A program made the translations under genes and the position numbers. Shown one piece after another: positions 24,591 to 34,889 of a DNA stretch of 38,219 nt. The first letter of the stretch is position 1. Each line of letters starts with the position of its first letter. Below the pieces are notes generated by a model that ran no database searches, was not told the DNA's origin, and worked only from the letters and a program-made list of their open reading frames with translations. This DNA is from an uncultured Lachnospiraceae bacterium (lineage in GTDB: Bacteria > Bacillota > Clostridia > Lachnospirales > Lachnospiraceae): contig CAMWGV010000028.1 of assembly GCA_947173945.1 (NCBI GenBank), forward strand, positions 1-38,219, written 5' to 3'.

Positions 24591-24764
24591 GTTGTGCAAT
24601 ATAGGCAATATCATAAGCAGGTACTTTGGAGCCGCCGGTGCTTAGCGAGGCATGTCCTGAGGTGTCTGCGAAGCAGACGGAGTCCTGAGGACAAGCTACT
24701 TTCTACCGCTGCGAGCGACAAGTAGCGAAAGCGTGCCTGCGGTGATTTGTCTATATTGTACAAC
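24591..24764. mobile_element. 174-bp element with terminal inverted repeats and folded GC-rich core (MITE-like)
   Basis: The left end GTTGTGCAATATAGGCAA (24591-24608) is matched inverted by TTTGTCTATATTGTACAAC at 24746-24764; with a few gaps the similarity runs about 33 bases inwards and ends in a closing stem GCAGGTAC (24617-24624) with GTGCCTGC (24733-24740). The core is much richer in GC than its surroundings and folds into branches: TGTCCT (24653-24658) with AGGACA (24688-24693) around the perfect hairpin GTCTGC-GAA-GCAGAC (24664-24678), and GCTACTT (24695-24701) with AAGTAGC (24720-24726) around CGCT-GCG-AGCG. There is no coding frame. It could be a non-autonomous element or a structured RNA. 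The rest of the 24448-24810 gap holds the terminator and repeat fragments only. Confidence 0.6.
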
Positions 24765-31879: not shown

Positions 31880-32272
31880 ATGAACTACGATGAAATAAAA
31901 GAGAGTGCAAAAAAATCAGGACTTATACCTACACTCGGAATGGAGATAACAGAGCTTGACGATGGGTATTGCAGGGGTGAAATGCCCTTAAATGAAAAGA
32001 CGTGCAATCCTTATGGAACCGTGCATGGAGGATGCATATATGCTTTTGCAGATACCATAGGAGGAAGTGCAGCACTTACAAAAAGTCAAAAGGTTGTCAC
32101 GCTTGACAGTCATATGAACTTTCTTAAAGCAGCTTCCAATGAAGGAAAGCTTATTGCTGAGGGAAAAGTAGTAAGACATGGAAATAAAGTTGCCGTATAT
32201 CATGTAGATGTTATGACAACAGCAGGGGTGCATGTAGCAGAGGCAACCTATTCATTCTACGTGTTGGAATAA
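31880..32272 (+). CDS. PaaI-type acyl-CoA thioesterase (hotdog fold)
   Basis: 130 residues forming a single hotdog domain. The signature CNPYGTVHGGCIYAFADTIGG (about residues 39-59) has the HGG turn and the acidic residue on the long helix used in PaaI-like thioesterases; the last strands are KVAVYHVDVMT and ATYSFYVL. It would hydrolyse aryl- or acyl-CoA esters, so it could return CoA in aryl-acetate metabolism encoded at 17714-22716, though it is 9 kb away (inference). The ribosome binding site is modest (GAAGGGA). It ends 3 bases before the scrambled palindrome. Confidence 0.88.
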   Translation: MNYDEIKESAKKSGLIPTLGMEITELDDGYCRGEMPLNEKTCNPYGTVHGGCIYAFADTIGGSAALTKSQKVVTLDSHMNFLKAASNEGKLIAEGKVVRHGNKVAVYHVDVMTTAGVHVAEATYSFYVLE

Positions 32273-32275
32273 AAT

Positions 32276-32611
32276 GAATTTGCTGTCGTACTAAGCAGAG
32301 GCATACACTATTATAACGAAAACCGTTTGAAGACGTCGGCACTTGAGTTGCCAATTTAGAATGCCTATACAGGTGACAAAAAACACGCTTTCGCTCGTCT
32401 CAGACGTAACGGTACTAAAAATTGCCGGTTTAAGACCATCCTATATTAAGGATATCTTAGACCGGCAATTTAAGTGCCGACGTCTTCAAACGGTTTTTGT
32501 CACCTGTATAGGCGTTCTAAATTGGCAACTCTTAGTACCGTTACGTCTGAGACGAGCGAAAGCATGTTTTCGTTATAATAGTGTATGCCTGCTTAGCGGG
32601 ATAGCAAATTC
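32276..32611. repeat. 336-bp scrambled palindrome with crossing arm pairs
   Basis: Five inverted-repeat pairs fill the gap between two convergent genes. A: 32276-32323 with 32566-32611 (inner 30 bases perfect apart from a 2-base insertion, outer part imperfect). B: 32319-32344 with 32472-32497, 26 of 26. C: 32345-32382 with 32494-32531, 37 of 38, the exception a G-U pair. D: 32384-32417 with 32533-32566, 33 of 34. E: 32419-32435 with 32455-32471, 16 of 17 plus G-U, capped by ATCCT/AGGAT (32438-32442, 32449-32453). The order is A B C D E, E' B' C' D' A'. A normal palindrome would end E' D' C' B' A'. B, C and D therefore cross. No credible gene lies inside. Confidence 0.95.
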
Positions 32612-32618
32612 GTTCCAT

Positions 32619-34889
32619 CTACATCTGGTAGAATAATATGTTGTCCTTCAAATCCTGAGTTGATTCTCCGCCTGCTTTTACATATTTATCGTACACTGCC
32701 TGATACCGACGCAGAGTCTTTGCCGTCTGGATTTCAAACTTTGATATGGAAGCCTGATAGATAGGATTTTCCTTAAGTTCGTTCCTGACTGCCTTTTCAA
32801 AAGGACAATACCGCACAAGAATGTCTCTTGATATTTTGTTCAGACGGAAGCTTCCTTTTGACTCGTAGTTTATCCAGTTAATGTAATCGCCGATAAATAC
32901 TTCTTTATAATTATTTTTTGCTTTTGCGAGTGCACTCTTGATTTTTTCCTTTGCATCAGAGGAGAGCTCGTTGTTTTTACGGTAAAACTGAATATAGGAG
33001 CAATATTCTGCTGTTAAGGATTTGTCTCTTATATCGTTCCAGTGTACACCTTGAAGCTTGCGGCACATCTCCCATCGGAAGGCACCCATAACTTGCAGCA
33101 TCAAATCGTTTACATCAGCCATAGTGAAAATCGGGAACATAAATCTTCCCGGAGTGTCACTTTTGATTCCTGAGGTTTCCTGCCACATCGTGCTTCGGAT
33201 TCCTGTATTCGGCATTAAAATAATATCAGGAAGTACTTCCTTCATTATCTTCTCACATTGGATACCCTTATCAGGGTCCGAAAACATTACTTCTCTGTAA
33301 AATACGGAATAATCGACTTTACGTATTGCATTCAGCGACTCCTCAAGCTTGTCGGCAGTAACAAGCATTTTATCAACGGCATTCATCAAATCATTCTCAC
33401 AGAGGATAGGACAAAATGTTGTTACACGACCATATGTCTGTTTGCCCACAGAGCTGAACATGTTCTTGATTTCAAAATCGACCATGCGCTCCCTGTCATC
33501 CTTGTACTCTTCAAACTCTTCCTTTGTAATTTTATGCCGTTTTAACATTTCAGTTATGTCAGAAATGTAATCCATGTCAAACTCATTTTTTGATGTATTT
33601 TTTTCGCCTTTATAAATACATTTTAGCCATTCATAAATCGTATATATATGAGTGGAGTGGCATATATCAAGATGAGCCGACAGCTCATAAAGCTTCAGGG
33701 CATTTTCTTCACCTACAAAGGCAACGTCCATGAAACCGAAATTTAAAAACATCTGCAAAACAGGAGTCAGTGATGCTTCGTCTTTCACACCCCGCATAAA
33801 TACCTTATGGTATATGTCGTAGAATGTTGTAGTCAGGTTGCGCCTTAACGCATGAACCTCCTTGTCAGTGGAATATTTGTCAGGGAGCTTGAGATAAGAT
33901 TCAATAAGCTCTATTGTCTTATCCATATCAACATCATTTAAGCCCGCATAGGATAAAATATGAGCAAGGCAGTCTTCGGTCATAATGTCAATTTCTTTCC
34001 TTGTATTGTCAGATATTGCCTCGCTATCAGACTGGGTCGCAGCATAGTTATAATTTTTAGCTTCATTTATGCGTCTGGTAAGTATGTTATTATTGTAAAT
34101 ACCCAACTTGACTGCGACGTTTGCAATCAGGTCAAGATCCTTCGTTATCGGCTCGATGTCATATTTTTTTGCATGTGTCTTAATTGACAAATCAAAGAAA
34201 AGAGCAAACAGGTCATTTCTGGTGTCGCTTATTAAAATATCCTTGTTATAGGACAGGTATGTATCCATTTCACCGATACCAAGGGCAAATCTGCGCATCT
34301 GGGCAGCAGTCTCCATGATAACGCCAACAGTCATACTGTCATCCTTTCCCATAAGCTGTAGATAGTCCTGCATATATTTTGTTGCAATACTTGTGCTGTT
34401 GTTAATTTCCCATACTTCCGCCTTATGTCTCATTTCAAGGGAATTAAACAGAGTTATTCTCGGAAATGGATTCATTTCAATTTTGAATTTAGCACATAAT
34501 GTTTTATAATCATTATAAAGAGATTCTACAAACATATGAAACTGACGGGTTTTATTATCTAAATCCGAGTATAGCTTAAGCATCTGATGTCTTTGCCAGA
34601 TTGCAGTTCTCAAAAATACATTTCGGATTTTTTCCTGTCGGGTAAGTAAATTCTTTAAATCCGTGTCATTTCTGCAAACGAAAGCAGCCAGTACAGTATC
34701 CTCACCGGCTATGTAATCGCATAAAAACATGTCCTTTTCAAGAATTCCGATAATTGCATTTTTTTCTAATTTAATAGATGAAGAACCGAGTTTTTGTATT
34801 ACGGTACCTTCCTGTATCAGATACCAATAAACCACTTTGTCATTTTTTTCGGCAATAACTTCATCTGGTTTGAATTTCATTATTTCCAC
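32619..34889 (-). CDS. Large protein with cyclic-nucleotide-binding-like N-terminus (756 aa)
   Basis: Function not known. The start is the GTG at 34889, 7 bases after AAAGGAGG; the in-frame ATG three codons later is 16 bases away. Residues 5-75 look like a cNMP-binding/cupin-type beta-roll (YLIQEGTVIQKLG, IIGILEKDMFLCDYIAGED), but the phosphate-binding cassette of true cAMP receptors is not evident. The remaining 680 residues are mostly helical and acidic, without helix-turn-helix, kinase or transmembrane segments. A region near 565-650 (PDIILMPNTGIRSTMWQE, then FPIFTMADVNDLMLQVMGAFRWEMCRK) looks most conserved-like. The gene is divergent from a diguanylate cyclase, sharing a promoter region, which hints at a signalling role (inference). 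Confidence 0.75.
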   Translation of the reverse strand: MEIMKFKPDEVIAEKNDKVVYWYLIQEGTVIQKLGSSSIKLEKNAIIGILEKDMFLCDYIAGEDTVLAAFVCRNDTDLKNLLTRQEKIRNVFLRTAIWQRHQMLKLYSDLDNKTRQFHMFVESLYNDYKTLCAKFKIEMNPFPRITLFNSLEMRHKAEVWEINNSTSIATKYMQDYLQLMGKDDSMTVGVIMETAAQMRRFALGIGEMDTYLSYNKDILISDTRNDLFALFFDLSIKTHAKKYDIEPITKDLDLIANVAVKLGIYNNNILTRRINEAKNYNYAATQSDSEAISDNTRKEIDIMTEDCLAHILSYAGLNDVDMDKTIELIESYLKLPDKYSTDKEVHALRRNLTTTFYDIYHKVFMRGVKDEASLTPVLQMFLNFGFMDVAFVGEENALKLYELSAHLDICHSTHIYTIYEWLKCIYKGEKNTSKNEFDMDYISDITEMLKRHKITKEEFEEYKDDRERMVDFEIKNMFSSVGKQTYGRVTTFCPILCENDLMNAVDKMLVTADKLEESLNAIRKVDYSVFYREVMFSDPDKGIQCEKIMKEVLPDIILMPNTGIRSTMWQETSGIKSDTPGRFMFPIFTMADVNDLMLQVMGAFRWEMCRKLQGVHWNDIRDKSLTAEYCSYIQFYRKNNELSSDAKEKIKSALAKAKNNYKEVFIGDYINWINYESKGSFRLNKISRDILVRYCPFEKAVRNELKENPIYQASISKFEIQTAKTLRRYQAVYDKYVKAGGESTQDLKDNILFYQM

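Follow-up and report, generated by a model that had tools for sequence, protein, structure and literature searches.

MITEs and the BOX, RUP, ERIC and NEMIS sequences are short, dispersed, non-coding repeats able to fold into stem-loops. REP, BIME and REPIN sequences are multicopy, extragenic, imperfect palindromes that form hairpins and carry modules in opposite orientation, and it has been suggested that they act in termination and are non-autonomous mobile DNA (PMC2817692; PMC3116915). Mitochondrial palindromic GC clusters, or double-hairpin elements, are described as mobile, merging into larger clusters and constrained in their hairpin (PMC4478555). The element considered here lies in a 38,219-nucleotide stretch of contig CAMWGV010000028.1 from an uncultured Lachnospiraceae bacterium, hereafter the window. 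It shares the form, the module orientation and the suggested roles just listed for REP/BIME/REPIN sequences, but its module is about 109 nt long with a three-way junction, and its modules are nested inside one another whereas REP modules lie side by side. Like MITEs it is dispersed in near-identical non-coding copies; in contrast to MITEs, BOX, RUP, ERIC and NEMIS it has a conserved unequal box and up to three concentric levels, and no parent transposon or target-site duplication was recognised for it. The GC clusters are mitochondrial and 42 bp long in the example given, and the likeness to them is drawn without a comparison of homology or box architecture. A search of the literature, chiefly open-access, returned no description of a nested hairpin family, and passages of two surveys of hairpins and REPs do not mention Lachnospiraceae. 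Rfam gave no match in the window at gathering threshold; a permissive setting, applied to four loci, yielded a single weak match, which lies outside the modules. These searches agree with the statement of a sequence-only reading of this DNA that no named element with this order was known to it.

That reading had described a scrambled palindrome in which arms A, B, C, D and E are followed by E', B', C', D' and A', filling the gap between two convergent genes. The order and the near-perfect arms were recovered when the element was compared with the window by blastn, and the arms even reach slightly beyond the limits first claimed, to 32273 and 32614. The parts of the element, in window coordinates, are:

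32273..32614, no strand assigned: whole two-level hairpin element, 342 bp
32273..32318, + strand: outer stem A, left arm; holds TGCTGTCGTACTAAG, near the GGCTGTCGCACTAAG stem of related copies
32319..32344, + strand: outer box, short strand B; faces D' in the nested fold
32345..32379, + strand: variable stem C, left arm
32380..32418, + strand: inner box, long strand D; faces B' in the nested fold
32419..32435, + strand: inner stem E, left arm
32455..32471, + strand: inner stem E', right arm
32472..32497, + strand: inner box, short strand B'; followed by GGTTTTTG
32498..32531, + strand: variable stem C', right arm
32532..32570, + strand: outer box, long strand D', with the side mini-hairpin GCGAAAGC
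32571..32614, + strand: outer stem A', right arm
32367..32508, - strand: inner module, match to covariance model R1, 84.9 bits
32454-32582, + strand: outer module, partial R1 match only, 25.5 bits

In the blastn comparison B (32319-32344) and B' (32472-32497) are paired at 26/26 positions, C (32345-32382) and C' (32494-32531) over 38 bp with one mismatch, D (32380-32418) and D' (32532-32570) over 39 bp with one mismatch, E (32419-32435) and E' (32455-32471) at 16/17 positions, and a section of A (32299-32323) with 32566-32590 at 25/25. A goes further out at 81% (32273-32298 with 32589-32614). The left edge (32273) immediately follows a stop codon (32270-32272), the left neighbour being a thioesterase gene (PF03061), and the right edge (32614) is 4 bases short of the end (32619) of the other gene, which encodes a 756-aa protein (window 32619-34889, - strand) without a Pfam match at 0.001. 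High-scoring matches to this protein, at 64% identity or more, are present in 7/37 genomes of the genus, itself counted. A clean empty site at this locus was not obtained because in the two genomes with close thioesterase relatives (G021 and G028) other genes lie between the thioesterase and the right-hand gene. In G021 the relative of the right-hand gene has a plain GGCTGTCGCACTAAG-like hairpin beyond its end, and in G028 the thioesterase gene has beside it a palindrome of another kind, about 530 bp long and bounded by GGGCTGTCGCAGTAAGG ends (L157, 961-1500).

Comparison with other genomic copies demonstrates that a single sequence exists in two versions, B (AAAAC-CGTTTG-AAGACGT-CGGTACTT) and D (AAAACACGCTTTCGCTCGTCTCAGACGTAACGGTACTAA), which form the short and the long strand of an unequal box. 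The partner of B is therefore D' and that of D is B', while each of A, C and E is matched to its own primed arm, and the complementarity of B to B' and of D to D' exists because two copies of one box sit in opposite orientation. In the present copy a second module in opposite orientation occupies the loop of the first, and this results in the apparently crossed arm order; a simple rule accounts for a seemingly impossible palindrome. The sequence-only reading missed the likeness of B and D and was wrong in concluding that no nested fold is possible and that DNA could not extrude one clean cruciform. As RNA the element folds into a single concentric hairpin at -201.2 kcal/mol (z -20.8), a fully nested fold was also found as DNA (-123.4, z -23.1), and 0/100 shuffles folded as well as the element in either case. 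An RNA with several states or a pseudoknot, built on the crossed helices B-B', C-C' and D-D', could draw on the long complementary arms, which do exist, but is very improbable on grounds of both energy and anatomy. Relative to the best fold, the energy penalty is 41 kcal/mol when B-B' is imposed and 22 kcal/mol when D-D' is, whereas part of C-C' can be forced at zero cost because it is already present in that fold; the crossed helices are not required by an anatomy in which the B-B' and D-D' complementarity follows from two opposite copies of one box. An assembly error, also suggested at the outset, is contradicted by the arm order, which is that of the present element in 44/44 four-box copies tabulated, from several assemblies and many loci.

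The building block of the family is a module of about 109 nt in which an unequal box is set in a stem. The box has a short strand B and a long strand D', the latter carrying a bulge of two bases and, to the side, a mini-hairpin whose loop is of the GNRA type, and the module includes a three-way junction. Seven hairpins measuring 157-160 bp between the outer-stem ends contain one box pair each. An alignment of one-box-pair elements was restricted to loops <=22, which retained 30 of 37; compensatory, i.e., two-sided, changes were found at 21/32 consensus pairs. In the long-strand reading the mini-hairpin loop is GNRA in 137/140 boxes, and the two-base bulge is conserved as well. A wider alignment (54 distinct sequences of 74 matches) has C-G in 48 and T-A in 5 at the second pair of the mini-hairpin, an exchange which supports its interpretation as a stem. 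The sequence GCGAAAGC is a very stable DNA mini-hairpin, and the mini-hairpin alone therefore decides neither for RNA nor for DNA. The wider alignment also contains 39 G.T against 21 A.C pairs (p=0.027 if independent, which the sequences are not), an excess that leans weakly towards RNA. Module alignments further show that the structure is conserved across genera. The unequal box is probably a feature that a protein recognises.

The tabulation covered 90 elements, each with two or more boxes and a core of its own; 21 loci were left out as duplicates by name, and identical cores were counted once even at different loci. They comprise 44 four-box copies, 37 elements with one box pair, one read as three-level and eight that are partial or odd. 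The bulged side switches between levels in 44/44 four-box copies. A re-scan of the 49 elements with at least three boxes gave 33 clean two-level copies, six clean three-level alternating copies, the highest number of concentric levels in the family, and ten that were not cleanly resolved; a same-side box order was found in none of the 49. One locus (L116) first read as an exception to the alternation (BDdb) resolves to a three-level alternating copy. The left boxes are spaced by 34-46 bases, and by 38-44 in 36/44 four-box copies. Much of this uniform order and spacing could reflect descent from one two-level founder, because the C stems of two-level copies retain a weak likeness to each other (median identity 0.62 vs 0.47 when shuffled).

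The structured family exposed in this way has 16 to 84 copies in six genomes, is present in 15/15 tested genomes of the genus (R1 matches, 2 to 64 copies each), and is patchy in a major gut family, with no Rfam match. The window's genome (G000) has 19 other places that match at least 250 of 348 bases, plus many partial ones. With 150 candidates scored per genome, R1 gave 43 matches in the window's genome and 40, 41, 16, 17, and 84 in five others. In an order-wide sample with stricter filters and 13 candidates scored per genome, matches were obtained in 30/295 genomes, i.e., in 13/129 genera, and all 30 belong to one family. A blastn search with a two-level copy matched 18/61 genomes, all of one genus. 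Contigs with exact box matches are titled as Lachnospiraceae, Clostridium sp. or Bacteroides sp. assemblies, together with single matches in Caballeronia and Hydrogenophaga. A phage or plasmid origin was considered and rejected, as blastn gave no match in either collection and no viral contig had an exact box 19-mer.

The genomic positions of the elements point to the 3' ends of genes. Using a crude ORF caller, 73 of the 90 elements could be placed (one had a gap >700 and 16 were without an ORF on one side), of which 43 lie between convergent, 29 between tandem and 1 between divergent ORFs, compared to 23 convergent, 124 tandem and 39 divergent among 186 background gaps (Fisher p 1e-13 for convergent and 1e-5 for divergent; both near 1e-6 against background gaps >=200). 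Orientation relative to tandem genes is even (13 vs 16). A/T tracts adjoin related outer stems, and among 33 hairpins with GGCTGTCGCACTAAG-like ends, of sizes 31-64 (12), 157-160 (7), 364-388 (8), 444-448 (4), and two others, 16 have at least five T in the 8 bases past the stem, vs 7.1% of random 8-mers (p 1.5e-10). Intrinsic (Rho-independent) bidirectional terminators likewise are hairpins that stand at gene ends, in many cases where two genes converge, and are flanked by A and T tracts. The Lachnospiraceae element differs from these in its arms, which are about 170 bp long and enclose box modules, and the copy described here fails a simple terminator scan (no match in 32150-32750); its outer end is without a T tract, and its inner box is followed by GGTTTTTG. 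One of the explanations offered by the sequence-only reading, a device for bidirectional termination or against collision, is supported indirectly by the convergent context and by the A/T tracts of related outer stems.

The element is a copy of a Lachnospiraceae hairpin family, and we consider it probable, at roughly 0.6, that it is REP/MITE-like and would act as a bidirectional 3'-end hairpin; the family looks like one that is both mobile and terminator-like. Its spread would be that of a non-autonomous mobile hairpin, in many cases inside hairpins of the terminator type (outer stem GGCTGTCGCACTAAG), and between genes it would act on transcripts from both sides, either as a terminator or as a barrier to 3' exonucleases and convergent read-through. 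A more doubtful explanation is that of a selfish MITE-like hairpin without a host role, for which the pile-up at 3' ends would result from loss elsewhere or from targeting of terminator hairpins. It agrees with the near-identical dispersed copies, the presence and absence at matching loci (see below), the varied functions of neighbour genes and the lack of orientation bias, but the convergent excess (43/73 vs 23/186) is more than promoter avoidance alone would easily give, and the conservation of structure across genera also argues against it. Further R1 modules, mostly from other genera, were tandem in 26, convergent in 9 and divergent in 5 cases (n=40, no background count), and the convergent bias may therefore be special to the genus. 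This count used 49/74 matches, duplicates and most window-genome copies being left out; 8 of the 49 were without an ORF on one side and 1 was too far away. Regulation of one pathway was rejected after Pfam searches with 20 proteins (17 neighbours of other modules and 3 from the window) gave varied functions. At two loci (L077, about 1400-1540 and 2700-2780; L092, about 1500-1575 and 2640-2720) modules lie between trp-like or arg-like operon genes; the neighbours trpG and trpD, and argJ and argC, were named from reading translations.

Mobility is indicated by three copies of 444-448 bp in the window's genome, which are 90-96% alike over about 450 bp, lie at unrelated loci and have no coding capacity; the matches between them stop at the element ends. 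In addition, presence and absence are reciprocal at two sites in L048 and L139, and L110 has no hairpin at the position corresponding to that of L009. Visual inspection of a set of flanks revealed no target-site duplication. The family is set apart from the REPIN/RAYT system by the lack of a Y1 (RAYT) transposase match (PF01797) in the window's genome and in seven related genomes with two-level copies (G001, G014, G021, G028, G033, G034, and G036), and RAYT is not supported as the mover; PF01797 matches 8/37 genomes of the genus. IS110 is not supported either. Full-profile PF01548 (IS110) matches were found in 4/18 genomes (G028, G032, G036, and G177), and none in the window's genome, where only 66 of 155 PF01548 positions were matched in a 1424-aa frame that from its size is presumably Cas9. 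It is tempting to speculate, if only tentatively, that the family is an undescribed class of mobile hairpin with a three-way-junction module and a machinery that is neither Y1 nor IS110, which inserts at palindrome apices (those of terminators and of its own copies) and builds concentric hairpins in which the bulged strand alternates sides and the stems turn over yet stay complementary. If the nesting rule is true, the family would provide a natural system for the building, complementarity upkeep and tolerance of long bacterial palindromes, for hairpin spread without a Y1 transposase and for the insulation of convergent genes.

The C arms of the 44 two-level copies contain 1626 Watson-Crick, 28 G.T, 29 A.C and 18 other pairs, as well as 121 gaps, many at the fixed AAAAAC end. 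As G.T and A.C pairs are about equally frequent and orientation is even (13/16), these data do not clearly point to selection acting on a single RNA strand. At matching loci in related species the boxes are kept while the A and C stems are often unalignable, and in one pair (L011/L071) the element is also found in opposite orientation. At another matched locus (L010/L133) 111 pairs are unchanged, 11 changed on one side, 4 changed on both and 33 lost, the last owing to A and C arms that cannot be aligned; this one pair counted weakens an account in which the A and C stems evolve in place by compensatory mutations. Template switching in replication is proposed to create and repair RNA stems (PMC8794818), and it is likely to contribute to the stem complementarity observed here. 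The stems may be kept complementary by selection, by template-switch repair between arms, or by both. Loci L037-L040 carry four terminator-like D.D' hairpins, all perfect and about 43 bp long, which are possibly template-switch (fold-back) products. It has also to be considered that the elements are older host terminators whose long stems were made and kept by replication template switching, without transposition. The stems that differ wholesale between matching loci and yet remain complementary, the resemblance of the perfect D.D' hairpins to fold-back products and the mechanism outlined for RNA stems (PMC8794818) would fit this, but we regard it as unlikely in view of the whole 450-bp copies dispersed at 90-96% identity and of the unequal boxes, which persist although template switching should equalise them; equalisation is therefore opposed.

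It had also been suggested that the palindrome was rearranged so as to escape SbcCD cleavage. Full-length SbcD scored above cut-off in 6/18 genomes examined and was not detected in 12/18, among them the window's genome and six of the eight genomes with two-level copies, and copy number did not differ significantly with SbcD status (p=0.064, 12 vs 5 genomes; G033, without a copy count, was left out); the suggestion is not supported.

The window holds a second module copy with one box pair (24606-24751, + strand, 54.4 bits), the loop of which contains another small palindrome, TGTCCTGAGG...CCTGAGGACA. At L142 (5600-5881, reverse strand) the long box strand of a module is apparently interrupted by a TGTCCTGAGG-type palindrome, and from these two cases it seems that more than one hairpin family nests in the elements. 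In other genera, two loci (L199 in G269, 1501-1806; L188 in G177, 1501-1825) each carry a pair of neighbouring modules that are oppositely oriented and separated by 76-85 bases.
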